From the NCBI GenBank assembly GCA_030280995.1, contig JASXTE010000005.1, positions 38,475,203-38,539,202 on the forward strand: a DNA stretch of 64,000 bases, in the 5' to 3' direction. Below the pieces are notes generated by a model. The model saw nothing but the letters and a program-made list of their open reading frames with translations, was not told the DNA's origin and did not search any database. The stretch is from Hemileia vastatrix (lineage: Eukaryota; Basidiomycota; Pucciniomycetes; Pucciniales; Zaghouaniaceae). Position numbers and translations under genes: made by a program. This document shows, piece by piece, positions 27,087 through 59,160 of the stretch (the stretch's first letter is position 1; every line of letters begins with the position of its first letter).

Positions 27087-27161
27087 AGTATAATTTAATT
27101 CTCTGTAGTTCTCATTCTTTGGCACTACTACATCCTTATTTCAGGTGTTTCAAATTTTTTA

Positions 27162-27308: not shown

Positions 27309-27492
27309 GAAGACATCCCCCAGGATTTTGATGATTCCAGCGAGGAAGAAGAAGGAGAGGATACAATGCATGAGGCACCATCTGCCCCTGCTACTCACCC
27401 TTCTGGTCAACCTTCGGAGCCTGGACCATCTAATTCGCTGGAGGACTTCATGAGACAATTCTTTGACACTTTGATCCTTCTGCTTTAACAAT

Positions 27493-28240: not shown

Positions 28241-28261
28241 CTGAAAAGAACCAAGAAAATG

Positions 28262-29440: not shown

Positions 29441-29445
29441 AAAAC

Positions 29446-30512: not shown

Positions 30513-30625
30513 CCCAAATTATAAAATCAAAACAAAGATCACAAAAAACACACTTGGTAATTAAACATGACTATATTCACAATACAGCCCTACGCTATCT
30601 TCTGATAACAGCTTATTGATCTACT
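30513..30625 (-). other. D1 5' leader with unclear primer site
   Basis: About 110 bp between the LTR and the gag ATG. TTATCAGAAGATAGCG in sense faintly resembles the initiator-Met-type primer site TGGTATCAGA, but it is 16 bases from the LTR and imperfect. I cannot assign the primer. Confidence 0.3.
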
Positions 30626-32028
30626 TGTTGTAGAACCTACGACTCTTCTGCTGAAGCGCCGGCTTGATTATGTCCTCTTGATGAAACCCAAAAAAAAAAC
30701 CAAACAATCTAATCAAAAACACTAGTTACAATTATGCAACTGTTGGGAAACTAATTGTAGAGAGTTCTAAAGTACTAAGCAGTAGACACAATGCAAGATG
30801 GGTTGGTTCTCCTTTTTAATTTCTAAAAAGAAGCGCCTGCCACTCTTATTTTTAAAGACAGCGCAATAATGTGTAACACAAATATCTGATTAGAAAGTTT
30901 ATAAGTTGAGAGATAAGTAAAAGATCAGAAAAAAAACAAATATTACTATCTGGATATTTCTATTCATAAAAAGCGCTAATATCCACAGCTACTCACTCTT
31001 GAAGCGCTATCTTTGAATATGCCTTATTATAGAAATAAAATAACTCTAATAATAGTCAATCCTACTGAATCTATATATTCTTTCTATGCTGCGTTTTTCC
31101 ACTGTACTATATGAAATACACACACAGATGCACAAATGAAAAAGACTCAGAAATATCTCTAATATTATTCTCAAACAAATGACCACTAAGAAATTGATAT
31201 CTTATACTTGACTTAACAATTATTAATAATCTTATGTTAACTAATTATTTGTCAATTGTTATTATTTTTCCTACTCAATGTCCTTCTTTTATCATATAGT
31301 TCTCCTTTTTATATTTTTCCAGCGCTCAAGACACAGATCCCTAGTGGATTTTTAGCGCTGGTTCTAGCGCCACATTAGTAAAACAATAACTATTCTATAA
31401 GTAAACTAAATACATTGCTTGTAGCAACTACAGCACATAATTGCACCCTATGCTAACTTACACTAGTTTTTAACTTGTTTCACTCATACTCCATATACGC
31501 GCTCTTGACGATACCTTTGTTTTGTTTCAGCGCTACTTCCAGGTTAGACCCATTCTAATGCTGATCCTAGTCGCCTTTACTCTTGGGTAGTTTTCTTTTG
31601 TGATCGAGTCCCCATGCTCCTCACCTCATTACTAGTCTATAGTCCTGGAAATTTACTTGACTAGTTAGACTCTGCAACTTAAGTTACTTGTCTCAATAAT
31701 TATAGTACTTGCTGTGGTGCAGTATATTATGCACTTGTGTCCTTCTTAATGCGTAACACACAATTACTGGAAAACCCAAATCCATATTGTTTAGCGCTTG
31801 CGGTCCTAAATTGATAACACACAATTCCCCATTGTGCAGCACATCCCACTGCAAAATCCGAGCGCACAGACCCTAAATCCTGTTTTGCGCTTCTATTTCC
31901 CTTTTTTGAAACACACAAATATATATTATATTTTAATACTATCTACAGATCTAACTCCTCTTTTGTTCTTCATAGACTATGCGCGTTGATTGGTCCAAAA
32001 CCATGCTCCCTGCGAGGCGCATACCACA
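30626..32028 (-). repeat. 5' LTR of D1, about 1.4 kb
   Basis: Bounded by TGTTGTAG and TACCACA. The right edge is where pol homology of the host element stops; the left edge is just before the gag leader. Many AGCGC/GCGCT hexamer-like words are scattered through it. There is no second copy in the window to confirm the ends. Confidence 0.6.
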
Positions 32029-32483
32029 CCGGTTAAAGATTTACTGGCTCTGATGAAACCTTTGGCTACATTCTCTACAATTTAGTCATGAAGAACTTTA
32101 GATTCGTCTTTTGACAAAGAATAGACAGGACCTGCCCGAGGTACTGGACCTACTAACTCTATTTGATAGTCGTAGGGTCAAAGAGGTGGTAACATATCTG
32201 CCTTGTGGATTGAGAAAACATCAAGGAAATTGTGATAGATTCCCAGTAGAGTTGATTTAATTGCTTCAACTTTGATTTGGTCGTCTTCATCATCTTTGAG
32301 AGAATCTGTCAAGGTAAGAACAGAATTGAAAGACCAAAATTTGACTAATTTGAGGCAATTTAATTCCTCTTTGAGTGAAGTGATTGAGCTAGAAGGTTTA
32401 GCCAATTTCTCATTTAGAGAAAGATCAGATGCTTGCAAGTCATCTGCAAGAGATTTGTCCTCTAGCAGGAAATTGTCAGGAGG
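32029..32483 (-). pseudogene. Gypsy pol fragment (start of RT) of a further element
   Basis: Sense frame 32438-32178 and its continuation read a protease-RT linker, then LPPLRPYDYQIELVGPVPRAGPVYSLSKDE and GFIRASKSL. This is the conserved entry to RT in chromovirus-like elements (LPPHRPYDHKIEL type). It is truncated on the left by the D1 LTR and on the right by the A2 LTR. Confidence 0.8.
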
Positions 32484-33644
32484 TATGGTAAGGTAAACTC
32501 TTACAGTCGCCTTGCTGTAAGCAGAATCTGGAGGAGATGTGTGGATTTAGCTGAAAACCCCGTCCTTCCAATAAAAATTACAAAATGGGAATTCTAAATC
32601 ACTAAGCTAACCAATCTACTTGGATCCGATTGATTAAAATAATGAAACTCTAATATGTTTAACGCTTATTGAGATTTAAGTAAAAGTGGCTGTTGAGAAA
32701 AAAATACTGATAACAACAATTAAGGTGTACCAGTGAAAGATCTGAAAAGATTGACTTTTATGTTTTTATAATAATTTGAATTTTTATGAGACAGCAATAA
32801 TCAAGTCCCAGTGAGGAAGACCTTTCTAAAGATACCCTGTTTGAAGTGTGAATTAAATTGTTGAGTAGTATTTCTAAAATGTTATATATAAAATATAAAG
32901 TTATAGGGTATTACAATTTATTTGATTTGTTGAGTAATAAAAAATGAGACTGTGGTGGTCAATGATTAAGCTGTATGTTGTGTCCCCCCCTCAATTTTGA
33001 GTTTGAGAGGCGCTTAAGTATTCCTAGTCACGTGCCTAAGTTTTCCCCTCCAGAGCTCTTCCAGAGTCAATCCGGAACCCGTACGGAGTCCGTATGGAGT
33101 CGAAACGGAGTCCGTACGGAGTCCGTACGGAGTCAAAGCGGAGTCCGAACGGAGTCGAAACGGAGTCCATCCGGACTTCCGGACTCAATTAAAACCTTAA
33201 AACTATAATAAAAAATCTAGAAAAATTACACATAATAGAGCTACTTCCCCTTTACATACCAAGCTAATTTTTGTAGTCTGCGCAGCTCTAATTACCCCGT
33301 GAAAATTCATCGAAGTTAAGTAATTTCTGAAAACATAAATATTTCTATAAAACTTTAAAATTCTTTTAAAAATATAAGAAAAAAAGTAAAAATTCTGGGA
33401 AAATTTCCCAAGGTTCTTGAGTGACTCGACTTGATACTTATAAATTTTTCAGACCGTAAAAATAAGTTTTCCCTGTAAAAGAAATTTTTTTTGCGTAGGC
33501 ATTTGCTTTTAACCAATTTCTTCATATTTTAAACTCCAATAAATTAAATAAAACCCTTTTATAAAAAATAATAACGCCAGTCTTGCACGCCGTAATAACT
33601 CCATTTACGTACTTAGGTGCCATACTAAACTTTAGGCTGCCACA
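32484..33644 (-). repeat. 3' LTR of A2
   Basis: About 1161 bp, family-A ends (TATGGTAAGG ... GGCTGCCACA). It is longer than the others mainly through extra units in the palindrome array (33075-33180). Confidence 0.92.
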
Positions 33645-33661: not shown

Positions 33662-34319
33662 AATGTCCCCATTCTTATAACTTTGCATAAGTGGTTGAGC
33701 AATTCCAAAAGAATTATCTTTTCCAATAAAGTAATTTGATAAATTTGTTTTAGCTGGTCTTCTTTTAATTCTTGATAATAAAAACGTTGTTTCTTCTTCT
33801 CTGGCTTGATATAACATAAAATAAAATAAAACAAATCTTGTGATGATTCCACTACAAGAGCAAGGTTTGAATCCCATCAGACTCCCATTAACCAGTCTTC
33901 CTTCTTGTCACAGCATTGAGAGAGTGGATCTTCCTATGAGCCGAATACTCTTGATTACAACCTCATAGGGCCCCCCACTGAGCCGAATTCTATGATTCCA
34001 ATCTCGCCATAAGGTCCTCCAAGCTTCACACCAAAAAAAAATGGCCTAACTATGAGGCACTAAAAAAAATCATTCCCTAAAATCCAACTACCATCCTAAC
34101 TTCTGATTCCTTCATCACAATTTTCAAACTTTGCTATACAGCAAACCCATAAAATACTTTTGCCAGGCTTCCAATAATAATATTAACTTTAGACCATGTT
34201 AAAGCGCCACAAATTTCACCTAATTAACCATTATGCTTTCCTTAGCATCATCACCAGCTAAAATTTTAACCTCCTAAAGCTTATCAGCACCCAATTCCAG
34301 AAATAATTGAATAACCACT

Positions 34320-34883
34320 TTAGAGTCTTGGTAGACAGTGATAAATTAAAAGATTGAATTGAGTTATCCAAACAAGATTGACATTCCAGTTTAAAGTCTT
34401 GGTAGACCAAACATATAATTGATTGCCAGTTTATGGTCTTGGTGGACCAAAGATCGTTTAGTTGCATAAATAACTTGATAAATTCCTAAGTAAGGCCTAG
34501 GCTTGACCAAAGATTTAATAAATTTGATAATCCAGTTTAATGTCATAGTGGACCAAACATTTGATCGACAAGAAATCCAGTTTAAGGTCATGGTAAACCC
34601 AACAGCTTGATAACAGTCCAGTTTAAGGTCTTGGTGGACCTAACATTTGATCGATAAAAAAATAAAAAAATCCGTCTCCAAAAATATCCATAAAATCTTG
34701 ATCATCCTTGAAATTCAGTTTAAAGTCTTGAAGGACTAACAGCTCCAATATAAAATCTTTAATGACAGTCTTGAAATTTAGCCAGTTTAAAGTCTTGGAG
34801 GACTAACAGCTCCAAAATACGTGTAAAAAACCTTAAAGAACGTCTTGAACAGTAGCCAGTTTAAAGTCTTGGAGGACTAACAG
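34320..34883 (-). repeat. Array of short hairpin motifs, A2 3' noncoding region
   Basis: About ten motif copies, including TTGGTAGAC variants that break the stem. The order and spacers match A1 and A4, with several units missing. The stretch 33662-34319 matches A1 1392-2046 and contains only the broken short ORF. Confidence 0.83.
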
Positions 34884-35009
34884 CTGTCTTAAAGTAAAAT
34901 CCCATAGGTATTGAGTTCCCCTAGACCCTGTTTCCTGTCTAAACTATATGAATAAACTAAAAAGAATAGTGACTGAAAAATAAAACTAAGAAATATAATA
35001 ATAATTTTG

Positions 35010-35110
35010 ATTTAATTAATTAATTTTTTTTTTATTTTTATTTTTTATTATTATTATTATTATTATTATTTTTTTTTTAATTTTAATTTTTTTTTTTTTT
35101 TTTAAATTTA
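35010..35110. repeat. Low-complexity (ATT)n/T tract
   Basis: TTATTATTATT followed by T runs, at the same position as in the other A copies. Confidence 0.88.
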
Positions 35111-35203
35111 AAATAAAAGATTTTAGAATAGATAGTTTTGAAATAAAATTTAAAATTTAATTTTAAAGAAAGATAAAAAAAGTACTAAAATAAAATTTTA
35201 AAA

Positions 35204-35273
35204 GATGCCCCCCGGCCATTTGATGAGCCGTACCCTCGACATCATACCCACATCCAAGTGCAACTTGATGTGG
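35204..35273 (-). other. Structured module M1, A2 copy
   Basis: The inner stem is intact here (CGGC/GCCG around TCATCAAATG), as are GATG/CATC and the CCACATC hairpin. Confidence 0.7.
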
Positions 35274-35342
35274 TTACACAATTTTGAGAAATTGAAAAGA
35301 AAAGAAAATAAATGAAAGTTTTTAGAAGATAATTTTTATAAT

Positions 35343-35404
35343 GATGATCACTGGGTGGGCTCCCTCCAATTTATAAAAATGATTAGAGACCACCAGTGAG
35401 CATC
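35343..35404 (-). other. Structured module M2, A2 copy
   Basis: Same pairing as in A1: GATG, mismatch, TCACTGG with CCAGTGA, mismatch, CATC. Confidence 0.65.
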
Positions 35405-35620
35405 ACCTTTACAATAATTCATAATATATATTAAAGAAAAGAAATCACAATCTAACATAAAAAATCAAAAATAAAATAAAATAAAAACAATCTTGAATCC
35501 GGCATTGAGAGGGGTGTCTCTTGATTCGTTCCAGTTTATAGTCTTACTGGACTTCCTATAATTAAAAGACAAAGCCAGGATTCAACTAGAAACAGGGAAA
35601 ATTTTGGAAACGAACATTAT

Positions 35621-35661
35621 GGGGTAATTGTGTATAGAGCAGCCAGCCCATCAATTACCCC
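35621..35661 (-). other. Structured module M3, A2 copy
   Basis: Perfect 10-bp stem and unchanged loop. Confidence 0.75.
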
Positions 35662-35875
35662 CACACTTGCCAATATTAAATTAAGAAGGTTACCCTGTGA
35701 ACACTTCTTCCAATAAATTTTAAAAATTTTCCAACACTTTCTTCACCCATATTTTAAGAATTTTAAGTTTTCGAAAATTTCAAAGAAGGTCATCTTGCAT
35801 TTCGTTAAGTTTCATCACAGTTTCGTCGCCCATATGCAGTGTAACGACAGTAAAGTATTTTGATAAAAAAAGAAG

Positions 35876-36090
35876 ATAGTTTATCCTTGTTGCGGAGGTT
35901 GTTAAGATTTTTATAAACATCATAGTTTATCCTCATTGCGGAGGAATCCATAAAATTTCGTCGATATCATAGTTTATCCTCATTGCGGAGGTCAATATAA
36001 TTTCATAAATGTCATAGTTTATCCTTGTTGCGGAGGTATAAATTTAATAAAAGTCATTAAAATTTTGGTTTATCCTCATTTCGGAGTTAG
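35876..36090 (-). repeat. Tandem hairpin repeats after integrase, A2 3' part (5 copies)
   Basis: About 47-bp units with CCTC...GAGG hairpins and ATAAACTA tails. One unit has CCTTGTTG in place of CCTCATTG on the plus strand. Confidence 0.86.
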
Positions 36091-36224: not shown

Positions 36225-37363
36225 TGTGGTAGCCTAAAGTTTAGTACGGCACCTAAATATGTAAATGGAGTTATTACGGCGTGCAAGATTGGCGTTATTA
36301 TTTTTTTTATAAAAGGGTTTTATTTAATTTATTGGAGTTCAAAATATGAAGAAATTGGTCACAAGCGAATGCCTACACAAATACAATTTATTTTACAGAG
36401 AAAACTTATTTTTACGGTCTGAAAAATTTATAAGTATTAAGTCGAGTCACTAAAGAACCTTGGGAAATTTTCCCAGAATTTTTACTATTTTTCTTATATT
36501 TTTAAATGAATTTTAAAGTTTTATAGAAATATTTACGTTTTCAGAAATTACTTAAATTCGATGAATTTTCACGAGGTAATTAGAGCTGCGCAGACTACGA
36601 AAATTAGTTTGGTATGTAAAGGGGAAGTAGCTCTATTATGTGTAATTTTTCTAGATTTTTTATTATAGTTTTAAGGTTTTAATTGAGTCCGAAAGTCCGG
36701 ATGGACTCCGTTTCGACTCCGTTCGGACTCCGCTTTGACTCCGTACGGACTCCGTACGGGCTCCGGATTGACTCTGGAAGAGCTCTGGAGGGGAAAACTT
36801 AGGCACGTGACTAGGAATACTTAAGCGCTTCTCAAACTTGAAATTGAGGGGGGGGGGGGGACACATCATACAGCTTAATCATTAACCACCACGGTCTCAT
36901 TTTTTATTACTCAACAAATTAAATAAATTTGTAATACCCTTATAACTTTATATTTTATATATAACATTTTAGAAATACTACTCAACAATTTAAAACACAC
37001 TTCATATAGGGTATCTTTAGAAAGGTCTTCATCACTGGGACTTGATTATTGCTGTCTCATAAAAATTCAAATTATTATAAAAACATAAAAGTCAATCTTT
37101 TCAGATCTTTCACTGGTACACCTTAATTGTTGTTATCAGTATTTCTTTTATCAACAGCCACTTTTATTCAAATCTCATTAAGCGTTAATTATTTTAGAGT
37201 TTCATTATTTTTATCAATCAGATTCAAGTAGATTGGTTAGCTTAGTGATTTAGAATACCCATTTTGTTATTTTTATTGGAAGGACGGGGTTTTTGGCTAA
37301 ATCCACATATCTCCTCCGGATTCTGCTTACAGCAAGGCGACTGTAAGAGTTTACCTTACCATA
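36225..37363 (+). repeat. 5' LTR of A3
   Basis: TGTGGTAGCC to TTACCATA. The TATA-like TATAAAAGGG is at 36308, only about 80 bp from the start, so U3 may be very short. The palindrome array is at about 36690-36775. Confidence 0.95.
36308..36314 (+). promoter_or_regulatory. TATA-like box in family-A LTR
   Basis: TATAAAAGGG shortly after the LTR start; it recurs in the 46154 LTR and in the minus-strand LTRs. The promoter role is inferred from sequence only. Confidence 0.4.
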
Positions 37364-39106: not shown

Positions 39107-39706
39107 GTTTGATTACCTCCAGCAAGAGGGTAAACTGCAATTATCTCATCAAAACCCAATAAAAAATCTCAGTATAATTAAAACACAAAAAAATAAATTT
39201 TGTGAAAATTCTATTACGGGCCTCCAGCAAGAGGTTAAACTTCAATTATCTCCTTCTATTTTGGACCTTCAGCAAGAGGGTAAACTGCAATTATCTCATC
39301 AAAACCCAATAAAAAATCTCAGTATAATTAAAACACAAAAAAATAATTTTTGTGAAAATCCTATTACGGGCCTCCAGCAGGAGGTTAAACTGCAATTATC
39401 TCCTTCTATTTTGGACCTCCAGCAAGAGGGTAAACTGCAATTATCTCATCAAAACCCAATAAAAAATCTCAGTATATTTAAAACACAAAAAAATAATTTT
39501 TGTGAAAATTCTATTACGGGCCTCCAGCAAGAGGTTAAACTGCAATTATCTCCTTCTATTTTGGACCTCCAGCAAGAGGGTAAACTGCGAAAATCTTATC
39601 AAAATCCAATAAAAAATCTCAGTATAATTAAAACTCAAAAAAATAATTTTTGTGAAAATTCAATTCCGGTCCTCCAGCAAGAGGTTAAACTGCCGACTTT
39701 CTTTAC
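39107..39706 (+). repeat. 150-bp tandem repeat in A3 pol, 4 units
   Basis: Units start at 39221, 39371, 39521 and 39671 with an exact 150-bp period (50 codons), preceded by a partial unit. Each unit carries two short hairpin motifs encoding LQQEVKLQ and LQQEGKLQ, separated by NPIKNLSIIKTQKNN. Other copies have about two units. Confidence 0.92.
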
Positions 39707-42700
39707 AGGTGATTTACTGTTGGATAAGGGAAGCAAAGGTGTTGGAAAATCTGTTTATAAATTAGACGAGGGAAAGGAGAAAAGGGTAAAATTTAAAAAT
39801 GAAATAAAATATTTTTCTAATTTTTCTTATTCCGATTCTGGCGATGAAGAAGATTCATTTGATGAAAGTTTTAATGGCGATACAAAAGTAAATGATTTAC
39901 CTCAAGCTTATTTAGATGTGGACGCAGCCAAATATAAGAAAGTAGCAAATAAATTTCGACCTATTAATGAACCGCTACCTGCTGAATTAAATCCACCTTT
40001 GAGAAGAAGAAGGTTATCAAGAAATCCTTATGAAAGTCCCTTGGTAAAGAATCCACCTGAATTTTCTGAGACGTCAAGAATCACTTTTGAGAGACTGGGT
40101 GTTGTTAATTTTGGACCTGATGGTTGGTTGTCTGGAGAAGAGAAGAAGTTGTTGTTGGATGTGATGGTCAAGCGAGATAAGGCCATTGCTTTTGTAGAAG
40201 AGTAGAGGGGTGTGTTGAAGCATTCCTATGGGGAGCCTTACAAGATTCCTGTGGTATGTCATGAACCGTGGCAGCAGAAACCGATTCCTATTCCGGCTGC
40301 ATTGAAAGAAGCCTATATTGAAGTTGTCAGAGAACGGATACGCACTGGACTTTATGAGCAATCAACGTCAAGTTATTCTAGTCCGGTATTTTGTATCAAG
40401 AAACCAAATGGCAAGCTTAGAGTTGTTCATGATCTTAGGGAATTAAATAGGGTTACAATAAAGGATGCTGGGATACCGCCTAGTGCTGAGGAGTTTGTTG
40501 AAGCGTTTGCAGGGAGAGTGTGTTATAGTTTGGGAGATATTATGGGTGGATATGATGAGAGAGAGTTACATCCGGACTCAAGGCCTCTCACTATATTCGA
40601 TACACCACTTGGATGTTTACAGTTAACAAGATTACCTCAAGGAGCAACAAATTCGGTTGCAGTTTATCAAGCTCAGATGGCTTGGATCCTTCAAGATGAA
40701 ATTCCACAATATGCTGGAATCTTTATAGATGATGGAGGAATTAAGGGACCAACAACCGACTATGATAACCAGGTGTTGGAAGAGAATCCTGGGATACGCA
40801 AATTCATTTGGGAGTTTGCAATTACTTTAGAAAGAATCTTGTTTCGAATCGAAGAGGCTGGTTTAACTATTTCAGGTTCAAAATTTTCCTGTTGTGTGCC
40901 AGCCTTAGAAATATTAGGCCATGTGGTATGTAGAGAGGGTAGGATTATGTCCAAGAAGAAAGTTAACAAAATTCAGTCCTGGCCAAGACCCAAGAATACG
41001 CCCAAAGTTAAAGGGTTTTTAGGCATTTGTGTATATGTTAGAATGTTTATCAAGGACTTTTCTTCATTGGCAGCTCCATTGAGACGGTTAACAAGAAAGG
41101 ATTCAGACTGGGAGTGGGATGAAGAGTGTGAGAAGGCGTTTGTGAAGTTGAAGGAGGTTGTAGGGAAGGATTTAGTCCTGCACAAGTTGGATTATGGAAA
41201 AGGAGCTGGCAGAATTTATTTAGCAGTTGATTCAAGTCAGGTTGCAGCTGTGGCGGTTTTGTCTCAGATGGATAAAGCTGGTTACATCAGGCCAGTTAGG
41301 TATGAATCTGTAGTATTTACTGAGGTCGAATCAAGATATTCACAACCAAAATTGGAATTATGTGGTGTGGTGAAAATACTGAAGAAACTTCAGCATATTT
41401 TGTGGGGGCAACATTTTGAGTTGCAAGTGGATGCGAAATCGTTAATCCAGATGATTAATTCCCCAAGCTTACCGAACGCACCCATGACGAGATGGGTAGC
41501 TTTTATTCAACATTTTTCATTTGATTTAGTTCATAAGCCTGGCAAAACTTTTACTATGCCAGATGGTTTATCAAGGAGACCACCCACTGAAGAAGATTCA
41601 GACTCATAAGAGTTCGATGAAGATATACCTATTATCAAAGCCAGCACTAAAGGAGCTGAAGACTTTCCATACCTCCCCCATGAGGTTAAACTGGCAGGAC
41701 TTTTGTGTTTAGATTATGATGATGATGACCTCCACCAAGAGGATAAACTGGAAAATATTTTTATGTTAATAAAGGTGTTGGAAAAGGTGTAGATAAATTC
41801 GGCAGAGAGGAGGTAGAAGAAGATGTGGTGTATGTAGAGGAAAATGGATTGGTAGTGTGGGATAGTAGTAAATTAAGGAATGGTGTATATGTTGGAGAAT
41901 TAGAGAATTTAAATAAAAGGTTGGATAAAGAGAAAGAGGTATTTTCAAATACGGTTTACGAAGGATCCAAAGGTTCAGAAGAAAAACGTCGACATAGCTC
42001 GATTAAAGATTTATTTAGGGGTCAACGATTATTGGCTCATTCATGTGCAGGTGATATTGGTGATAGAGAAGTCCCTATTGATGTTATATTAATCGATTTT
42101 CAAGATGAAGTCTGGGGTCAGACTGGTTTTTATTTTTTGTTAGTCAAATATTTGTTGACTTTAGAGAGGCCAGAAGGTTGTGAAGACGATGAATGGGTGG
42201 CTATCAAGAGGAAGTCATCTACGTTTTACCTATCTGGTCGACGTTTAATGAGGAGAAGGTATCCAAATCCTCAAGTAGTTATAACTCAAGAGAAGGGGCA
42301 AGAATTAGTTTTGAAATCACTGCATGAAGATCTAGGGCATAGAGGCGTTGGAGAAACATTTAGAAGAATTTCTGATAGATTTTGGTGGCCTGGCATGAAG
42401 ATGGCTGTTAAACAGTGGGTTCAGTCATGCGAAGAATTTCAAAGACAAAGTTATTTAAGGCCAAAAGAACCTGGACGTGCAACCGGGGAATATACGCTCT
42501 TTGGGAGAGTTAGTTTAGATGCCATTCATATAAAAGAGGGACGTTATAAATATTTAATTGTGGCCAGAGATGATTTATCTGGTTGGGTAGAGGCAGCGCC
42601 TCTTATTAATTTAACTGCCAAAAATGTGGCAGAATTTTTTTTGAATAATTGGGTATATAGGTATGGTGTGATGAAGTTGGTAACAGTAGATGGAGGTCCT

Positions 42701-43382: not shown

Positions 43383-43662
43383 AACTCCGAAATGAGGATA
43401 AACTACAATTTTAATGACATTTATGAAATTTTATGGATAACTCCGAAATGAGGATAAACTACAATTTTAATGACTTTTATTAAATTTATACCTCCGCAAT
43501 GAGGATAAACTATGATTTTTTTAAAAAAAAAAAAAATCTTATTGACCTCTGCAACGAGGATAAACTATGATATCTACGAAATTTTATGGATTCCTCCGCA
43601 ATGAGGATAAACTATGATATCGACAATATTTTATGACGACCTCCGCAACGAGGATAAACTAT
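43383..43662 (+). repeat. Tandem hairpin repeats after integrase, A3 (6 copies)
   Basis: Units at about 43384, 43439, 43491, 43544, 43592 and 43640 with CTCC(G)AAATGAGG or CCTCCGCAATGAGG and ATAAACTA. A long A/T palindrome lies at 43507-43525. It is nearly identical to 48164-48445 on the other strand. Confidence 0.88.
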
Positions 43663-43918: not shown

Positions 43919-44135
43919 ATAATGTTCGTTTCCAAAATTTTCCCTGTTTCTAGTTGAATCCTGGCTTTGTCTTTTAATTATAGGAAGTCCACTAAGACTA
44001 TAAACTGGAACGAATCAAGAGACACCGCTCTCAACGCCGGATTCAAGATTTCTTTTATTTTATTTTGTTTTTCATTTTTTTATGTTAGATTGTGATTTCT
44101 TTTCTTTAATATATATTATGAATTATTGTAAAGGT

Positions 44136-44336: not shown

Positions 44337-44670
44337 TTTTAAAATTTCATTTAAAAAAAAAAAAAAAAAAAAAAAATTTATTACTTTTTTATTTTTCTTT
44401 TCACATTCGTTTATCTTTCTTTAAAAATTAAATTTTAACTTTTATCTCAAAACTATTTTTTTTTTTAAAAAAAAAAAATTAATTAAAATTTTATTTAAAT
44501 CAAAAAAAAAAAAAAAAATGAAAAAGTTAATTAATTAAATCAAAATTATTATTATATTTCTTATTTTTATTTTTCAGTCTTCATTCTTTTTTTAGTTTTA
44601 TTCATATAGTTTAGACAGGAAACAGGGTCTAGGAGAACTCAATACCAATGGGATTTTACTTCAAGATATC

Positions 44671-45491
44671 TGTTAGTCCTCCAAGACTTTAACCTGGCTA
44701 CTGTTCAAGACTTTCCTTAAGGGTTTTATACGAATTTTGGAGCTGTTAGTCCTCCAAGACTTTAAACTGGCTATCTTTCAAGACTTTCATTAAGGATAAT
44801 TTTCTTTATCTTGACATCTGTTAGTCCTCCAAGACTTTAAACTGGCTACTGTTCAAAACTTTCATTAAAGATTTTATATTGGAGCTGTTAGTCCTTCAAG
44901 ACTTTAAACTGAATTTCAAGGATAATCAAGATTTTATGGATATTTTCGGAGACCGATTTCTTTTTATATAAATCAAAATGTTAGGTCCACCAAGACCTTA
45001 AACTGGAGTTTTATCAAATGTTAGGTCCACCAAGACCTTAAACTGGACTATTATCAAGTGTTGGGTCCACCATGACCTTAAGCTGGATTTGTTATCGATT
45101 AAATGTTTGGTCCACCATGACTTTAAACTGGTAGTTCATTCATTGTTTAGTCCACTATGACTTTAAACTGGAAAATTAATATCTGCAGGATAATTCAACA
45201 TTCATTGGTCCACTATGACCTTATACTGGATTACTTGTCGATCAAATGTTTGGTCCACTATGACATTAAACTGGATTATCAAATTTATTCAATCTTTGGT
45301 CAAGCCTAGGCCTTACTTAGGAATTTATCAAGTTATTTATGCACCTAAACGATCTTTGGTCCACCAAGACCATAAACTGGCAATCGATTATATGTTTGGT
45401 CTACCAAGACTTTAAATTGGAATGTCAATCTTGTTTGGATAACTTAATTCAATCTTTTAATTTATCACTGTCCACTAAGACTCTAAACTGG
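44671..45491 (+). repeat. Array of short hairpin motifs, A3 3' noncoding region
   Basis: About sixteen copies, changing from AGTC/GACT stems (44671-44915) to GGTC/GACC stems (44980-45420). Loops are CTCCAA, CACCAA, CACCAT and CACTAT. Several GGTC/GACT copies pair by G-U in this sense strand. The stretch 45500-46140 holds the broken short ORF region and nothing else I can name. Confidence 0.87.
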
Positions 45492-46140
45492 TTATTCAAT
45501 TATTTCTGGAATTGGGTGCTGATAGCTTTAGGAGGTTAAAATTTTAGGTGGTGATGATGCCAAGGAAAGCATAATGGTTAATTAGGTGAAATTTGTGGCG
45601 CTTTAACATGGTCTAAAAATTAATATTATTTTTGGAAGCCTGGAAAAAGTATTTTATGGGTTTGCTGTATAGCAAAGTTTGAAAATTGTGATGAAGGAAT
45701 CAGAAGTTAGGATGGTAGTTGGATTTTAGGGAATGATTTTTTTTAGTGCCTCAGTGTTAGGCCATTTTTGGTGTGAAGCTTGGAGGACCTTATGGCGAGA
45801 TTGGAATCATAGAATTTGGCTCAGTGGGGGGCCCTATGAGGTTGGAATCAGGAGTATTCGGCTCATAGGAAGATCCACTCTCTCAATGCTGTGACAAGAA
45901 GGAAGACTGGTATATGGGAGTCTGAAGGGATTCAAACCTTGCTCTCAGTAGTGGAATCATCACAAGATTTATATTATTTTATGTTATATCAAGCCAGAGA
46001 AGAAGAAAGAACGTTTTTGTTATAAAGATTTAAAAGAAGATCAGCTAAAACAAATTTATCAAATTATTTTATTAGAAAAGATAATTCTTTTGGAATTGCT
46101 CAACCACTTATGCAAAGTTTTAAGAATGGGGACATTCTCG

Positions 46141-46153: not shown

Positions 46154-47277
46154 TGTGGTAGCCTAAAGTTTAGTACGGCACCTAAATATGTAAATGGAGT
46201 TATTATGGCATGCAAGATTGGCGTTATTATTTTTTTTATAAAAGGGTTTTATTTAATTTATTGGAGTTCAAAATATGAAGAAATTGGTCACAAGCGAATG
46301 CCTACACAAATACAATTTATTTTACGGAGAAAACTTATTTTTACGGTCTGAAAAATTTATAAGTATTAAGTCGAGTCACTCAAGAACCTTGGGAAATTTT
46401 CCCAGAATTTTTACTATTTTTCTTATATTTTTAAATGAATTTTAAAGTTTTATAGAAATATTTACGTTTTCAGAAATTACTTAACTTCGATGAATTTTCA
46501 CGGGGTAATTAGAGCTGCGCAGACTACGAAAATTAGTTTGGTATGTAAAGAGGAAGTAGCTCTATTATGTGTAATTTTTCTAGATTTTTTATTATAGTTT
46601 TAAGGTTTTAATGGAGTCCGGAAGTCCGGACGGACTCCGCTTTGACTCCGTACGGACTCCATACGGACTCCGTACGGGCTCCGGATTGACTCTGGAAGAG
46701 CTCTGGAGGGGAAAACTTAGGCACGTGACTAGGAATACTTAAGCGCTTCTCAAACTCGAAATTGAGGGGGGGGGACACATCATACAGCTTAATCATTAAC
46801 CACCACAGTCTCATTTTTTATTACTCAACAAATTAAATAAATTTGTAATACCCTTATAACTTTATATTTTATATATAACATTTTAGAAATACTACTCAAC
46901 AATTTAAAACACACTTCATATAGGGTATCTTTAGAAAGGTCTTCATCACTGGGACTTGATTATTGCTGTCTCATAAAAATTCAAATTATTATAAAAACAT
47001 AAAAGACAATCTTTTCAGATCTTTCACTGGTACACCTTAATTGTTGTTATCAGTATTTCTTTTATCAACAGCCACTTTTATTCAAATCTCATTAAGCGTT
47101 AATTATTTTAGAGTTTCATTATTTTTATCAATCAGATTCAAGTAGATTGGTTAGCTTAGTGATTTAGAATACCCATTTTGTTATTTTTATTGGAAGGACG
47201 GGGTTTTCGGCTAAATCCACATATCTCCTCCGGATTCTGCTTACAGCAAGGCGACTGTAAGAGTTTACCTTACCATA
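46154..47277 (+). repeat. 3' LTR of A3
   Basis: 1124 bp, differing from the 5' LTR by few substitutions and by fewer palindrome units (about 46610-46685). The similarity points to a recent insertion. Confidence 0.95.
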
Positions 47278-48104: not shown

Positions 48105-48445
48105 TTTTGTCGACCATATACAGTGTAACGATAGTAAAGTATTTTGATAAAAAAAAGAAGATAGTTTATCCTCGTTGCGGAGGTCGTCATAAAATATTGT
48201 CGATATCATAGTTTATCCTCATTGCGGAGGAATCCATAAAATTTCGTAGATATCATAGTTTATCCTCGTTGCAGAGGTCAATAAGATTTTTTTTTTTTTT
48301 AAAAAAAATCATAGTTTATCCTCATTGCGGAGGTATAAATTTAATAAAAGTCATTAAAATTGTAGTTTATCCTCATTTCGGAGTTATCCATAAAATTTCA
48401 TAAATGTCATTAAAATTGTAGTTTATCCTCATTTCAGAGTTAGAC
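48105..48445 (-). repeat. Tail segment with tandem hairpin repeats, second A2 copy (6 copies)
   Basis: Matches the inverse of 43383-43718 of A3 almost base for base, including the A/T palindrome (48285-48310). Its right side continues into an integrase C-terminus. Confidence 0.88.
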
Positions 48446-50122
48446 TTCGGCACTCCTGGTGCCTCTAGGATAGAACCGTTTCACTTGATCGGCCGCTACC
48501 CTCTTCTTCAATACTACTCCATCCAACTCTTCTAGCACATATGAACCGCCGGAAACTTGCTCCTTGATTTTATACGGTCCATTCCACCTATCTGCAAACA
48601 TCTTTCCCCACTGACTTTCCAAACTCCTATTATACACCAGGACCATATCACCTGGGTTCAAAGGTTTCCTTAATCGATGTACCAACCGCTCATCCCAATA
48701 TCTGACTGATTGATTTCGGATCTTCATCATCCGCGAATATGCCTTTTCTAAATATTCTTCTTTCTTTTCTAGCTGCATCATTCTTGCACACAATAATTCT
48801 TCAGTAGTTTTGACCGTGTCCCAGTCAACTCCAAGATATGATTCAGCTTCTAAATCAAGCGGTAAAACAGCTTTCTGTCCAAAAACAAGTTCATAAGGTG
48901 AAAATCCGGTCGTCCGTTTGGCAGTGATTCGATCAGCAAATAAAACTAATGGTAAATAGTGCCTCCACTTTTCGGCACTTGTCCCACACATTTTAACTAA
49001 TGCATCCTTAATAACTTAATGCCCTCTTTCAACCATGCCTTCAGCTTCAGGATAATATGGGGTTGCTACCCTAACCTTTGATCCAACTTTCAATACGGCC
49101 TCTTTAAACTCTGTCCCAAATTCAGGACCTCCATCTACTGTTACCAACTTCATCACACCATACCTATATACCCAATTATTCAAAAAAAATTCTGCCACAT
49201 TTTTGGCAGTTAAATTAATAAGAGGCGCTGCCTCTACCCAACCAGATAAATCATCTCTGGCCACAATTAAATATTTATAACGTCCCTCTTTTATATGAAC
49301 GGCATCTAAACTAACTCTCCCAAAGAGCGTATATTCCCCGGTTGCACGTCCAGGTTCTTTTGGCCTTAAATAACTTTGTCTTTGACATTCTTCGCATGAC
49401 TGAAACCACTGTTTAACAGCCATCTTCATGCCAGGCCACCAAAATCTATCAGAAATTCTTCTAAATGTTTCTCCAACGCCTCTATGCCCTAGATCTTCAT
49501 GCAGTGATTTCAAAACTAATTCTTGCCCCTTCTCTTGAGTTATAACTACTTGAGGATTTGGATACCTTCTCCTCATTAAACGTCGACCAGATAGGTAAAA
49601 CGTAGATGAATTCCTCTTGATAGCCACCCATTCATCGTCTTCACAATCTTCTGGCCTCTCTAAAGTCAACAAATATTTGACTAACAAAAAATAAAAACCA
49701 GTCTGACCCCAGACTTCATCTTGAAAATCGATTAATATAACATCAATAGGGACTTCTCTATCACCAATATCACCTGCACATGAATGAGCCAATAATCGTT
49801 GACCCCTAAATAAATCTTTAATCAAGCTATGTTGACGTTGTTCTTCTGAACCTTTGGATCCTTCATAAACCGTATTCAAAAATACCTCTTTCTCTTTATC
49901 CACCTTTTTATTTAAATTCTCTAATTCTCCAACATATACACCATTCCTTAATTTACTACTATCCCACACTACTAATCCATCTTCCTCTACATACACCACA
50001 TCTTCTTCTACCACCTCTCTGCCAAATTTATCTACACCTTTTCCAACTCCTTTATTAACATAAAAACTATTTTCCAGCTTATCCTCTTGGTGGAGGTGAT
50101 CATCACCATAATCTAAACACAA
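48440..50122 (-). pseudogene. pol: A2 integrase, full-length copy with stop
   Basis: Frames 50122-49016 and 48991-48440 cover the linker, HHCC (HEDLGHRG, SCEECQRQ), both Asp blocks and the C-terminus. They are split by TAA for CAA in GH-stop-VIKDA near 49016, the same lesion as A3 at 42806. The motif VHRLRKP and LPLDLEAES are also shared with A3. Confidence 0.9.
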
Positions 50123-50170
50123 AAGTCCTGCCAGTTTAACCTCATGGGGGAGGTATGGAAAGTCTTCAGC

Positions 50171-52103: not shown

Positions 52104-52807
52104 CAGTAAATCACCCGTAAAGAAAGTTGGCAGTTTAACCTCTTGCTAGAGAACCGGAAATGAATTTTCACAAAAATTATTTTTTTTGTTTTAATTATAC
52201 TGAGATTTTTTATTGGATTTTGATAAGATTTTTGCAGTTTACCCTCTTGCTGGAGGTCCATAATAGAAGGAGATAATTTCAGTTTAACCTCTTGCTGGAG
52301 GTCCGAAATAACATTTTCACAAAAATTTTTTTTTTGTGTTTTTATTATACTGAGATTTTTTATTGGATTTTGATAAGATTTTCGCAGTTTACCCTCTTGC
52401 TGGAGGTCCGAAATAGAAGGAGATAATTGCAGTTTAACCTCTTGCTGGAGGTCTATAATTGAAGGAGATAATTGCAGTTTAACCTCTTGCTGGAGGTCCG
52501 GAATAACATTTTCACAAAAATTATTTTTTCGTGTTTTAATTATACTGAGATTTTTAATTGGGTTTTGATAAGATTTTTGCAGTTTACCCTCTTGCTGGAG
52601 GTCCGAAATAGAAGGTGATAATTGCAGTTTAAATCTTGCTGGAGGTCTGGAATAACCTTTTCACATAAATTATTTTTTTGTGTTTTAATTATACCAAGAT
52701 TTTTAATCGGGTTTTGATAAGATTTTCGCAGTTTACCCTCTTGCTGGAGGTCATAAAACATACCCATCCAATTTTTATCCAACCTAATTTGGCCCATTTT
52801 GCCTTTT
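52104..52807 (-). repeat. A2 pol N-terminal repeat region
   Basis: About nine short hairpin motifs (CCTC, CAGCAA, GAGG, TAAACTGC) in roughly 150-bp units, frameshifted. At 52812 a deletion of about 190 bp, compared with A4, joins it directly to the protease end. Confidence 0.85.
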
Positions 52808-53680
52808 TCACCGTTGAGGGCATCCATCCTTTCCCAGCAAACATAATTCACCAGAAGCCGTCCGTTTTATATGCTGCTTCTTGGTGCATACACAACACTG
52901 GCACAGAGTAGTAATCCCTGGCCGTGTTTCCCAACCTTCATCTCCAGGAGGCGCTAACCGCATATGTAACCTCCGCATATCTTCACCAGTGATCTCCAAA
53001 CTAATTCCCATGCCAGCTTGATTCCCTATCCTGGCCTCAAAATCCATCAAAAAAGGACCGCCAAGAACAGTTTTGACTGCTCCTCTGGCCACATAAAAGT
53101 GAACCTTACCAACAGATCCACCAATGCCTAACCTGACATGCTCAGCTCTACCCATCAGCTCTGTTGCATGCCCTCCGATGCCTCTGAGGTTTCCCCCAGT
53201 GCCACTTTTAATTGGCAAGCCTATACTCGTTGCTTGCTCCAATGAAATTAAATTAATTTGAGACCCTGAATCGACCAAGGCCTTTACTTCTTTACCGTTA
53301 AGAGTTACCACCAGGTAACCCAGGGGAGCGGAAAAATGTGTATCTACATCTTCCCCAAACTTTTCAGCATTTTCACAAATATATTCCACCTCTCCAGTGG
53401 AAACCCGACGCCTCGTCAAATGCTTCTTTTGCTTTTCAGCAAGTGCCGGACTAATTGTAAATAACTCCCCCAAAGATAAGGGAATCTGCAGTTGATTCAC
53501 CCTATTCAAAACTGCGTCCATCGCATTAGCTTGACCAGAAACTACTGGCCGCTCATCCTGGACCTTTGATTTAACAACCTTGGCCCTGGGTACCTCTTGA
53601 GGTCCAACCAAGCCATCTTCACCCCCCATTATAACATCTTCACTTTCTATAACCCTAACTCCGTCACCAGCTTCTTGCAC
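52808..53680 (-). pseudogene. A2 aspartic protease, shift site deleted
   Basis: DSGSQINLIS, GGHATELMG and FLMDFEARIGNQ are intact in a 290-codon frame that begins in the gag tail. The -1 shift signal and the first part of pol are deleted at its end. Confidence 0.88.
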
Positions 53681-53689
53681 TAATCCTGA

Positions 53690-54811
53690 TTAATCAATAG
53701 TCCTTCCTACTCCCTCCATTGGGATGGGACCGCTAAAACTTGGTCTGGGTAGAGACACCAATGGTACGTCCTCCTCAGAATCCGAATCATCCTCTGGCAT
53801 AGGCTCACCATTTAAATCAAACTTGCCATAACTAGGGGGCCCCATATCAGCAATCCCCTTCTGCATTTTATATAATTCGTCCTTAGAGTAAGGGTTCAAT
53901 TTGTTGGCAGCAGTTTGAGCACTAGAATTCTTGTCCTTTGAGTAAGGGTTCACTTTGTTATTGGCCTTGCCAGGATTAGCCCTCAATTGGCTCTGAATGC
54001 TACTCTTCGCCTTAGTAGCAGCTGCTCTTCTAGCAGCATTAAAATCGTATTCGCCAGCCATACAGCTACCCTCCACCTGGGCAACGGTCGCCAGCTCTAA
54101 ACCACCAAAAGAAGTAGAAAATGTGGCTTTACTGACCTCTTTCTCCTTGCCCTTGTCAGCTTTACCACCATTACCATTACCATTTTTGCCACTCTTGGCA
54201 TTAACATCTTCATCCGTCACCTCTTCAAATCTGGCTCTCCTTTCAGCTGTTAAACTTCTTCTGACCAAATAAGAAGGAGACTGTCCATCACTGGGCTTGA
54301 TGAACGAACCATCAAGAAATTTATAAACTTTACCATCGAATAAAACTCGCCCAGCATCCATATCCTTGTCAAGAGCAAAACAAACTGTTGCTCTGTGCCC
54401 CCTCCTATTACAATAGGAGCACACCTTTGGCTCATTGTAGCCACCTCTATAAATACTACCACCTTTCCCACCATTTCTCCCATTGCCTGGGAAGCGGTTA
54501 CCGTTGTTATTGCCATTATAATTTTGACGTTCATAACCTCTGGACTGATAAGAAGTTGATGTCGACGAAGAAGCAATTGGGGCCTTGTTGGCCTTCTGTG
54601 TCTCTTGAACAAATATTTTTAATTGTTTCGTTAAATCTGCCAAGTGATTGACCATCTTATTGTCTACATTGCCCTTAACTTTAGCAGCCGGTAATCCCAT
54701 TTGTGCCTTCTTGGCCTCCTGGGCTTTGACCATAATATTGTTGTTTTCGGCCAAAACTTCGCTAACCTTGCTAACATATTGAGTGCATGACTCTTGATAT
54801 TTTTCCAACGC
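53690..54811 (-). pseudogene. gag: A2 gag C-terminal part, cut by A4
   Basis: A 372-codon frame with a Gly/Asn-rich segment, knuckle CSYCNRRGHRATVC (C-x2-C-x4-H-x4-C) and SDSEEDVP tail. A stop near 53690 separates it from the protease. The capsid half is beyond A4 and outside the window. Confidence 0.88.
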
Positions 54812-55958
54812 TATGGTAAGGTAAACTCTTACAGTTGCCTTGCTGTAAGCAGAATCCGGAGGAGATATGTGGATTTAGCTGAAAACCCCGTCCTTCCAAT
54901 AAAAATAACAAAGTAGGTGTTCTAAATCACTAAGCTAACCAATCTACTTGGATCTGATTGATAAAAATAATGAAACTCTAAAATAATTAACGCTTATTGA
55001 GATTAAAGATCGTGGCTGTTGATAAAGAAATACTGATAACAACAATTAAGGTGTACCAGTGAAAGATCTGAAAAGATTGACTTTTATGTTTTTATAATAT
55101 TTTTAATTTTTATGAGACAGCAATAATCAAGTCCCAGTGACGAAGACCTTTCTAAAGATACCCTATATGAAGTGTTATTTTAATTGTTGAGTAGTATTTC
55201 TAAAATGTTATGTAAAAAAAATAATAATGTTATAAGGGTATTACAAGTTATTTTAATTTGTTGAGTAATAAAAAATGAGACTGTGGTAGTTAATGATTAA
55301 GCTGTATGATGTGTCCCCCCTCTCAATTTCGAGTTTGAGAAGCGCTTAAGTATTCCTAGTCACGTGCCTAAGTTTTCCCCTCCAGAGCTCTTCCAGAGTC
55401 AATCCGGAGCCGGAACGGAGTCCGTACGGAGCCCGTACGGAGTCAAAGCGGAGTCCGTACGGAGTCCGTACGGAGTCCCTCCGGACTTCCGGACTCAATT
55501 TAGAACCTTAAAACTATAATAAAAAATCTAGAAAAATTACACATAATAGAGCTACTTCCCCTTTACATACCAAACTAATTTTCGTAGTCTGCGCAGCTCT
55601 AATTACCCCGTGAAAATTCATCAAAGTTAAGTAATTTTTGAAAACGTAAATATTTCTATAAAACTTTAAAATTCATTTAAAAATATAAGAAAAATAGTAA
55701 AATTTCTGGTAAAATTTCCCAAGGTTCTTGAGTGACTCGACTTAATACTTAAAAATTTTTCAGACCGTAAAAATAAGTTTTCTCCGTAAAATAAATTGTT
55801 TTCGTGTAGGCATTTGCTCGTGACCAATTTCTTCATATTTAAAACTCAAATAAATTAAATAAAACCCTTTTATATAAAAAAATAATAACGCCAATCTTGC
55901 ACGCCGTAATAACTCCATTTACATATTTAGGTGCCGTACTAAACTTTAGGCTACCACA
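54812..55958 (-). repeat. 3' LTR of A4
   Basis: About 1147 bp with family-A ends. The palindrome array is at 55408-55495 and includes several TCCGTACGGA units. Confidence 0.93.
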
Positions 55959-55975
55959 TCCTCCCTCCAATTGAG
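55959..55975 (-). promoter_or_regulatory. Polypurine tract of A4
   Basis: Sense TCAATTGGAGGGAGGA before TGTGG. The stretch 55976-56620 matches A1 1392-2046 and contains only the broken short ORF. Confidence 0.86.
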
Positions 55976-56620: not shown

Positions 56621-57382
56621 CAGTTTAGAGTCTTAGTGGACAGTGATAAATTAAAAGATTGAATTGAGTTATCCAAACAAGATTGACATTCCAGTTTAAA
56701 GTCTTGGCGGACCAAACATATAATCGATTGCCAGTTTATGGTCTTGGTGGACCAAAGATCGTTTAGTTGCATAAATAACTTGATAAATTCCTAAGTAAGG
56801 CCTAGGCTTGACCAAAGATTGAATAAATTTGATAATCCAGTTTAATGTCATAGTGGACCAAACATTTGATCGACAAGTAATCCAGTATAAGGCCATAGTG
56901 GTCCAACGAATGTTGAATTATCCTGCAGATATTAATTTTCCAGTTTAAAGTCATAGTGGACTAAACAATGAATGAACTACCAGTTTAAAGTCATGGTGGA
57001 CCAAACATTTAATCGATAAGAAATCCAGTTTAAGGTCATGGTGGACCCAACACTTGATAATAGTCCAGTTTAAGGTCTTGGTGGACCTAACAAATCCAAT
57101 AAAAAAATTTAAACAATAGTCTTGAAAATTAGCCAGTTTAAAGTCTTGGAGGACTAACAGATGTCAAGATAAAGAAAATTATCCTTAATGAAAGTCTTGA
57201 AAAATAGCCAGTTTAAAGTCTTGGAGGACTAACAGATCCAAAATTTGTATAAAACCTTAAGGAAAGTCTTGAACAGTAGCCAGTTTAAAGTCTTGGAGGA
57301 CTAACAGCTCCAAAATACATATATAAAAAAAACCTTAAAGAACGTCTTGAACAGTAGCCAGTTTAAAGTCTTGGAGGACTAA
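56621..57382 (-). repeat. Array of short hairpin motifs, A4 3' noncoding region
   Basis: About fourteen copies with GGTC/GACC and AGTC/GACT stems, in the same order as A1 and A3. Confidence 0.86.
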
Positions 57383-57509: not shown

Positions 57510-57552
57510 TTTTGATTTAATTAATAAATTTTAATTTTAATTTTAATTATTA

Positions 57553-57600
<48 letters not shown>

Positions 57601-57720
57601 TTTTTTTTTATTTATTTTATTTTTATTTTATTTTATTTTTATTTTTTTTTATTTTTTATTTTTATTTTTTTTTTATTTTTTTTAATTTTAATTTTTTTTT
57701 TTTTTTTGATTTAAAATAAA
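57510..57720. repeat. Low-complexity (ATT)n and (ATTTT)n tract
   Basis: A perfect ATT microsatellite of about 14 units at 57560-57600, followed by TTTTA runs. Confidence 0.92.
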
Positions 57721-58043: not shown

Positions 58044-58259
58044 ACCTTTGCAATAATTCATAATATATATTAAAGAAAAGAAATCACAATCTAACATAAA
58101 AAAATCAAAAACAAAATAAAATAAAAGAATCTTGAATCCGGCGTTGAGAGCGACGTCTCTTGATTCGTTCCAGTTTATAGTCTTAGTGGACTTCCTAAAA
58201 TTAAAAGACAAAGCCAGGATTCAACTAGAAACAGGGAAAATTTTGGAAACGAACATTAT

Positions 58260-58300: not shown

Positions 58301-58520
58301 CACACTTGCCAATATTAAATTAAGAAGGTTCCCCTGTGAACACTTCTTCCAATAAATTTTTAAAAATTTTCCAACACTATCTTCACCCATATTTTAAGAA
58401 TTTTAAGTTTTCGAAAATTTCAAAGAAGGTCTTCTTGAATTTCGTTGAGTTTCATCATAGTTTCGTCGACCATATACAGTGTAACGATAGTAAAGTATTT
58501 TTTTATAAAAATAAGAAGAT

Positions 58521-59160
58521 AGTTTATCCTCGTTGCGGAGGTATAAATTTAATAAAAGTCATTAAAATTGTAGTTTATCCTCATTTCGGAGTTGATAAAA
58601 TTTAAGAAATTTCATAGTTTATCCTCATTGCGGAGGAATCCATAAAGTTTCATTGATATCATAGTTTATCCTCATTGCGGAGGAATCCATAAAATTTCGT
58701 TGATATCATAGTTTATCCTCATTGCGGAGGAATCCATAAAATTTGATAAATGTCATAGTTTATCCTCATTGCGGAGGAATCCATAAAATTTCCTTGATAT
58801 CATAGTTTATCCTCGTTGCGGAGGTATAAATTTAATAAAAGTCATTAAAATTGTAGTTTATCCTCATTTCGGAGTTATCCATATAATTTCATAAATGTCT
58901 TAGTTTATCCTCATTGCGGAGGAATCCATAAAGTTTCATTGATATCATAGTTTATCCTCATTGCGGAGGTATCCATAATATTTAAGAAGTTTCATAGTTT
59001 ATCCTCATTGCGGAGGATCCATAAAATTTAAGAAATTTCATAGTTTATCCTCATTGCGGAGGAATAAATTTAATAAAAGACATTAAAATTGTAGTTTATC
59101 CTCATTTCGGAGTTGATAAATTTAAGAAATTTCATAGTTTATCCTCATTGCGGAGGTATA
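58521..59160 (-). repeat. Tandem hairpin repeats after integrase, A4 (about 14 copies)
   Basis: Units of about 46-48 bp. Most read in sense CCTCCGCAATGAGG followed by ATAAACTA; some read ACTCCGAAATGAGG. This is the largest such array in the window. The pol stop codon TGA lies inside the first unit. Confidence 0.92.

Follow-up and report, generated by a model that had tools for sequence, protein, structure and literature searches.

The short hairpin that recurs through the retrotransposons of this stretch of the Hemileia vastatrix genome (64,000 nucleotides, hereafter the window) is real, selected and far more extensive than a sequence-only reading of the same DNA had described. The conserved tail that follows the hairpin appears to supply the second strand of an H-type pseudoknot, a feature that is new relative to that reading. 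Copies of classes I and II would each fold into a 23-nt H-type pseudoknot in which bases 1-4 and 11-14 form stem 1, loop bases 7-9 join 21-23 in stem 2, loop 1 is C5-N6, the junction is base 10 and stem 1 is crossed by the A-rich NUAAAC (15-20). The copies, their positions, their orientation, their conservation at the nucleotide level and their pairing pattern are observed directly; the repeated 23-nt pseudoknot is probably a recognition tag on element RNA.

The window consists mostly of nested LTR retrotransposons. RT, RNaseH and integrase domains were found with Pfam in the A1 and B1 pol frames, and the order protease, RT, RNaseH, integrase, together with LTRs, a primer binding site and a polypurine tract, identifies the elements as Ty3-type. 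Self-comparison and the element ends place the LTR length at ~1.1 kb; the primer binding site reads TGG(C/T)GCCCAACGTGGGG, and the 3′ LTR is preceded by the purine tract TTGGAGGGAGGA. The pol sequences of families A and B are 67–70% identical, and among identical residues of ten types 46–48% have identical codons. Gag of A2 carries a single CCHC knuckle, CSYCNRRGHRATVC, which was read by eye; the window frames searched gave no Pfam match for Gag. Between A1 pol and its 3′ LTR lies a region of ~3.2 kb with no frame longer than 93 aa. The principal landmarks are as follows.

6928-20103, minus strand: B1 element, with LTRs at 6928-8024 and 19007-20103 that are 94% identical; nested in A4 pol
36225-37363, plus strand: A3 5′ LTR, followed by the primer binding site TGGTGCCCAACGTGGGG
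53690-54874, minus strand: A2 Gag frame, measured between stop codons, the first codons being LTR sequence
54812-55958, minus strand: A1 3′ LTR, with the purine tract TTGGAGGGAGGA at 55959-55970
59148-63449, minus strand: A1 pol frame, 1434 aa (RT, RNaseH, integrase), open through all seven class I copies

Several other features of these elements were recorded. Gag and protease share one frame in two copies (21549-23678 and 52808-54874, minus strand), with stops between them; because these stops are located differently in the two copies, they look like decay and not like a conserved recoding stop. A different Ty3-type RNaseH fragment lies at 27467-28105 (plus strand). The LTRs contain an 11-bp tandem repeat of the type CGGACTCCGTA, nearly self-complementary, at 822-900, 24965-25031, 33064-33175, 36696-36774, 46625-46696 and 55396-55478. 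The family A 3′ noncoding region includes very long A/T-rich low-complexity tracts (2948-3125, 44460-44545, 57528-57712), and the B1 3′ region has antisense open frames at 7950-8489 and 9334-11046 (plus strand). The frame at 7950-8489 gives a weak Zn2Cys6 match that falls under the cut-off (E=0.008), and by eye a C..C...KK.C cluster is present in each of 7950-8489 and 9420-10157; a zinc-cluster pattern search across the window, B1 included, found no match.

The array that first drew attention to the motif was located at 44675-45490, within the interval originally proposed. The description of each copy as a 4-bp stem and a 6-nt loop at a fixed distance from the tail held up, since 101 of the 146 TAAACT(G/A) tails in the window are fully paired at that offset. 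Shifting the 3′ arm by 1–5 bases reduced the paired count to 0–2, and first-order random sequence gave a mean of 0.63 paired tails with a maximum of 3 in 100 trials. The three stem types (CCTC/GAGG, GGTC/GACC and AGTC/GACT) and the C....A loop were likewise confirmed. The tail had been given as TAAACTG, and exact TAAACTG does occur 24 times on the plus and 69 times on the minus strand of the window; however, a large subclass ends in TAAACTA, and the last tail bases, far from being simply fixed, match the loop. A covariance model of the motif, the check for which the sequence-only reading had called, was built from 63 hand-picked copies, 42 of which come from the window and so match by construction. 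This model returned 138 window matches with E ≤ 1, of which 133 have E ≤ 0.039, and all 138 follow the sense of their element, as had been claimed. Thirty-nine of them lie in pol, including one at 38748 just upstream of the A3 open pol frame, and 99 lie in 3′ noncoding regions; no model match was found in the LTRs, in gag, in the protease present in the window, or in the 25504-32483 interval that surrounds the different RNaseH fragment. The copies are distributed as follows.

39116-39693, plus: A3 class I array, eight in-frame copies in the protease-RT spacer, LQQE.KL
41672-41751, plus: A3 class I pair at the RNaseH-integrase junction, where the A3 frame is broken
43384-43661, plus: A3 class III array (CCTC or ACTC/GAGG, tail TAAACTA), just after pol
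43986-44008, plus: A3 lone class II copy, 3′ noncoding
44675-45490, plus: A3 class II array (AGTC/GACT and GGTC/GACC stems), 14 copies, 3′ noncoding
62849-63171, minus: A1 class I array, five in-frame copies in the protease-RT spacer
60791-60870, minus: A1 class I pair, in frame, RNaseH-integrase junction
58520-59156, minus: A1 class III array, 14 copies, the pol stop codon inside the first
58171-58192, minus: A1 lone class II copy
56621-57380, minus: A1 class II array, 3′ noncoding region
52130-52750, minus: A2 class I array, protease-RT spacer
50075-50153, minus: A2 class I pair, RNaseH-integrase junction
48162-48440, minus: A2 class III array
21017-21292, minus: A4 class I array, protease-RT spacer; repeat boundaries suggest that A4 is one element split by the nested B1
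5784-5862, minus: A4 class I pair, RNaseH-integrase junction
3581-4148, minus: A4 lone class II copy and class III array
2047-2818, minus: A4 class II array
34316-36087, minus: A6 fragment with a class II array, a single copy and class III copies
15933-16021, minus: B1 class I pair, in frame, protease-RT spacer
13855-13913, minus: B1 class I pair, in frame, RNaseH-integrase junction
12048-12320, minus: B1 class III copy (end of pol) and lone class II copy
8774-9316, minus: B1 class II array, 3′ noncoding, CCCCAA loops then TGAGG (possible bulged second helix)

Covariation of the two outer stem pairs had been proposed, and this proved strictly true of the second pair but only loosely true of the outermost. 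We compiled 191 copies from the window, the chromosome C2 loci and random stretches, chosen regardless of the outer two pairs. Pair 2 is CG in 97, GC in 90, UA in one and unpaired in three, while the outermost pair is CG in 78, AU in 58, GC in 17, GU in 10, UG in two and unpaired in 26, with ACTC/GAGG, GGTC/GACA and TGTC/GACT as fixed mismatch types. Among 231 column pairs in 87 distinct copies, pair 2-13 ranks first and pair 1-14 fifth. Tested class by class, the outermost pair gives no sign of covariation in CTC copies (p=0.76) and weak support for it in GTC copies (p=0.005). In 58 distinct aligned copies 96.6% of stem 1 cells are paired (pair 2 GC in 36, CG in 18, UA in one, other in three), a value to which pairs 3-12 and 4-11 contribute with the help of the rule used to choose the copies. 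Stem 1 is thus closed by covarying pairs, as in an H-type pseudoknot; all covariation tests here are shuffles, column slides and family-stratified shuffles, which correct for relatedness only in part. Across the genome, A or T stands on both sides of pair 2 in 160 matches; among the 100 of these listed, 60 are UA, 10 AU, 16 AA and 14 TT, so that 70 are paired and 30 are not. A copy from a third family (L020:2178-2199) has a CTTC/GAAG stem and a TAGACTG tail, a further paired state of pair 2, and CTTC/GAAG arms account for 8 of the 100 double changes among the genome-wide matches listed.

It had also been argued that intermediates pairing by G-U in the sense strand, which would be A-C in the antisense, identify sense RNA as the selected form. 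Genome-wide, GGTC/GACT (G-U) occurs 5357 times and AGTC/GACC (A-C) 283 times. However, 93 of the 100 G-U matches listed have the loop CACCAT or CACCAA, which are the loops of fixed array positions in the window, and for loops beginning CT the counts are 195 (G-U) and 115 (A-C); CTTCAA is frequent among the G-U matches listed and occurs in 2 of the 100 A-C matches listed. Because the G-U excess is concentrated in two loops and falls to 195 versus 115 for CT loops, this argument is weak once the two founder loops are set aside. The broader claim, of a structured, element-borne motif under selection that is best read as sense RNA, is nevertheless supported, and the pseudoknot is better evidence for RNA than the stem.

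The second helix came to light through coupling between loop and tail columns (8 with 22), and loop bases 7-9 were therefore tested against tail bases 21-23, with which they pair. The test set comprised 82 distinct class I and class II copies, with class III and one odd copy excluded. Pair 7-23, which lies outside every rule by which copies were chosen, is C-G in 32 copies, G-C in 20, U-A in 12, C-A in 14 and other in four. It is Watson-Crick in 64 of 82, compared with a mean of 29 and a maximum of 46 in 20,000 shuffles. Pair 8-22 is standard (C-G or U-G) in 77 of 82, and pair 9-21 is nearly given by the selection rule, although base 9 is A in all 116 copies chosen without a rule on the loop. 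Taken together, the three pairs are formed in 223 of 246 cells, against 9–27% at registers slid by 1–3 bases. For the whole structure, assessed on a 63-row alignment with 58 distinct rows, 93.1% of cells are paired (77.2% in shuffles, 0/500; 20–37% when slid) and the covariation score is 0.397 versus 0.133 shuffled; the second helix alone is 88.5% paired versus 78.6% (0/500). Neither the number of pair types nor the number of pairs with a double change exceeds the shuffles. Classes I and II thus show the loop-tail pairing with covariation expected of an H-type pseudoknot, and it is very likely that both classes fold into this knot.

The 7-23 signal persists when shuffling is confined to class and family (65 observed; null mean 49.5, maximum 63). 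By group, it is significant for class I in family A (p=0.0006) and in the B group (p=0.007), although independent changes in class I must be few because which of the two states a copy shows mostly tracks the pol junction where it lies; it is marginal for class II in A (p=0.05), and the strict pair is not significant in class II of the B group taken alone (p=0.23). All 14 C7-A23 copies, which are class II copies of the B group, have G24, and if A23 is bulged then 27 of 27 can pair, a rule made after the data were seen. Switching is visible among neighboring copies: CTCCAA loops go with a following TGG (TGAGGG in one case), and CTTCAA, CATCAA and CGTCAA loops with a following TGA, apart from one coding CATCAA that has TGC. 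The U7-A23 state has 10,371 matches genome-wide. Both helices are short and come out weak in energy calculations; as an isolated duplex the second is predicted at −0.9 to +1.5 kcal/mol with initiation (six variants). When four copies were folded alone, the class III copy was the only one to beat shuffles, and an extra outer helix drawn from the flanks appeared in single-copy folds only. No simple second helix is available to class III copies (TAAACTA), of which 0/22 pair at 8-22. At 58520-59156, 43384-43661 and 48162-48440, class III copies instead fall into two linked types at bases 21 onward: loops ending GCAA(T/C), mostly with TATG, and loops ending AAAT, with TAC. In the AAAT/TAC type the stem is mostly mismatched (ACTC/GAGG). 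The two class III types are not explained by the pseudoknot.

Conservation is concentrated in the motif. With one representative per array position from five families, grouped by pol similarity, class I carries 1.72 bits/base against 0.46 and 0.43 in its flanks (19 copies), and class II 1.50 bits/base against 0.14 and 0.15 (45 copies). When the outer two pairs were left free, 51,362 + 51,234 = 102,596 matches were counted in the 747.6-Mb assembly, and the reversed pattern gave seven; class III falls outside this count because the pattern demands TAAACTG. Twenty 10-kb stretches taken along one chromosome contained four model matches, in L046 and L055, and all four adjoin A/B-type integrase sequence. 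Eight of the 20 hold other Ty3-type sequence (22–35% identical to A/B, often cut by the stretch ends), with which no model match was associated. Pattern searches of IMG/VR returned 1 and 10 stretches with one match each, which we take to be probable chance matches; one of these (L001) has frames that by look resemble RNA phage frames. No relatives of the pol were found among viral and prokaryote contigs.

Copies inside the pol reading frame were, like the pseudoknot, absent from the sequence-only reading. The A1 copies translate as LQQE(D/V/G)KL in the protease-RT spacer and, at the RNaseH-integrase junction, as LPHEVKL and LHQEDKL; in B1 two in-frame copies lie at each of these junctions, so that the same junctions are occupied in families whose pol is only 67–70% identical. 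The first Leu of the coding motif is CTC in 11 of 11 copies, a codon used for 2% of Leu elsewhere in A1 pol, and the last is CTG in 11 of 11 versus 7%; GAG (11/11 versus 37%) and AAA (11/11 versus 63%) are likewise fixed, with the proviso that the 11 copies are related and do not represent 11 independent events. Coding copies are spaced by multiples of three in A1, A3 and B1, and at 5 of 7 intervals in A2, compared with 3/13, 3/13 and 2/9 intervals in three noncoding arrays. Because the Leu codons of the motif are rare elsewhere in pol, nucleotides rather than peptide seem to be selected.

The sense-strand fold, the many copies, their placement where constraint is low, their occurrence, in the sequence examined, with a single lineage and their retention through family divergence argue for a recognition site. 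The knot would tag the sense RNA of a single Ty3-type lineage in cis, with tens of copies per element kept where protein constraint is low, namely at the two pol junctions and in the long 3′ noncoding region. An RNA-binding protein encoded by the element could bind these many weak sites cooperatively; Gag, through its single CCHC knuckle, is the best candidate reader, and its binding may condense and package full-length RNA. We favor such a packaging or condensation code because of the CCHC knuckle, the dependence of Ty3 on UTR or POL sequences and the precedent of dispersed packaging signals in viruses. We nevertheless hold it tentatively, as a reading with a real chance of being right but short of an even one, since the protein reader, its identity as Gag and the packaging step are all inferred.

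Viral dispersed packaging signals are stem-loops read by the coat proteins of icosahedral viruses. In MS2 and picornaviruses one degenerate motif occurs in many copies across genomic RNA (PMC6281560, PMC7793301 and PMC4751978, in excerpt), and here too many copies (138) of one degenerate, structured motif lie across element RNA; unlike the viral signals, the motif is a pseudoknot, it resides in an LTR retrotransposon, and Gag is a candidate reader only. Excerpts of PMC4974528 report that Ty3 RNA localization and packaging depend on UTR or POL sequences, a reliance that the elements described here may share, and that the packaging sequences are not precisely defined; no repeated motif is described for the Ty3 signals in those excerpts. 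The same excerpts state that nt 429-4979 of Ty3 are dispensable when proteins are supplied in trans, which speaks against internal packaging signals in Ty3.

Next after a Gag-read packaging code we rank a host factor, from the export, localization, translation or RNA-modification machinery, that would read the knot and open a pathway to unspliced RNA. The same structural, sense-only and multi-copy evidence fits such a reader, and 3′ noncoding regions are the usual places for arrays of host-read elements. The pathway would, however, be equally open to the other Ty3-type sequence in the eight chromosome stretches, yet no match accompanies it, and the four matches that did occur stand beside A/B-type integrase sequence; we consider a host reader unlikely, though still worth weighing. 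Reading of UAAAC through m6A (DRACH) or by a YTH protein is an idea only.

The knots could instead act mechanically, as barriers that stall 5′-3′ exonucleases, ribosomes or reverse transcriptase, and so protect the RNA, pause translation at domain junctions or promote template switching. Polerovirus-type knots have a short loop 1, a 3-bp second helix and an A-rich last loop. Those of the beet western yellows virus type, likewise very compact and built of two helices, stimulate ribosomal frameshifting (PMC5009743, in excerpt), and the coding copies described here do lie between protein domains. Polerovirus knots act beside a slippery site, whereas the present motif is many-copy and mostly untranslated (99 of 138 copies). 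A slippery heptamer 5–9 nt upstream is absent from all seven A1 pol copies; the nearest such heptamers, AAAAAAT, end 26 nt before two of them, which argues against a frameshift signal at the usual spacing in A1 pol. A 4-bp stem 1 would also be a weak obstacle, and taken jointly the barrier outcomes appear improbable.

Slippage-amplified tandem repeats, with pairing inherited from one founder per class, might have no present function at all. The arrays clearly expand and contract, and neither pair 2 nor pair 7-23 of class I shows many independent changes. Slippage does not readily account for a motif that is conserved while its spacers are not, for the codon bias of the pol copies, or for several matched 7/23 states in different contexts, and we regard absence of function as quite improbable.

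Slightly less probable still is a motif that acts as DNA, an inverted repeat bound by a dimeric protein with a VANC-like anti-silencing role. VANC acts on DNA, and its motif arrays lie in VANDAL elements. The precedent is apt in that a sequence-specific protein acts on noncoding transposon parts in Arabidopsis (PMC10398659 and PMC5735166, in excerpt), that the arrays here occupy noncoding DNA and that one of the B1 antisense frames has the weak, below-cut-off zinc-cluster match noted above (E=0.008). Unlike the VANC target, the pairing pattern here is RNA-type. Because loop and tail covary, a DNA dyad is disfavored: the 7-23 pairing has no obvious meaning in duplex DNA. In addition, mixed arms (G/G or C/C at pair 2) occur in 0 of 191 copies, and the family A 3′ region has no antisense frame longer than 112 aa. 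Finally, the motif might serve Pol as peptide (LQQE.KL, LPHEVKL), perhaps by providing protease cleavage sites. The position of in-frame copies at the protease-RT and RNaseH-integrase junctions would suit this reading, but it is disfavored, and rated the least probable of all, by motif codons fixed contrary to the usual codon use of the gene and by the 99 of 138 copies that are noncoding, where spacing is a multiple of three in a minority of the intervals of three arrays.

The impression that no described motif resembles this hairpin was borne out by Rfam, which gave no match in the window at gathering score and, for 44600-45520 at E up to 10, six matches far under their gathering scores (best E=0.027). 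The preQ1-I riboswitch (RF00522), a minimal pseudoknot of a hairpin and an A-rich tail, was not among the matches in either search. Such a cis signal was not found described in the portions seen of the open-access literature on LTR retrotransposon RNA motifs, and the main text of PMC12210899, on rust fungus transposons, contains no mention of hairpin, tandem or Ty3.

On this evidence we propose, as a possibility short of probable, a distributed tertiary-RNA code that a protein encoded by the element would read cooperatively in order to pick out full-length RNA. How an LTR retrotransposon chooses its own full-length RNA is poorly defined (PMC4974528, in excerpt), and a covarying pseudoknot offers a concrete, testable handle on that choice. 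The findings further suggest that a single tiny RNA fold, outside every Rfam family, can be matched more than 100,000 times in one genome, and that pol codons have been bent to preserve it.
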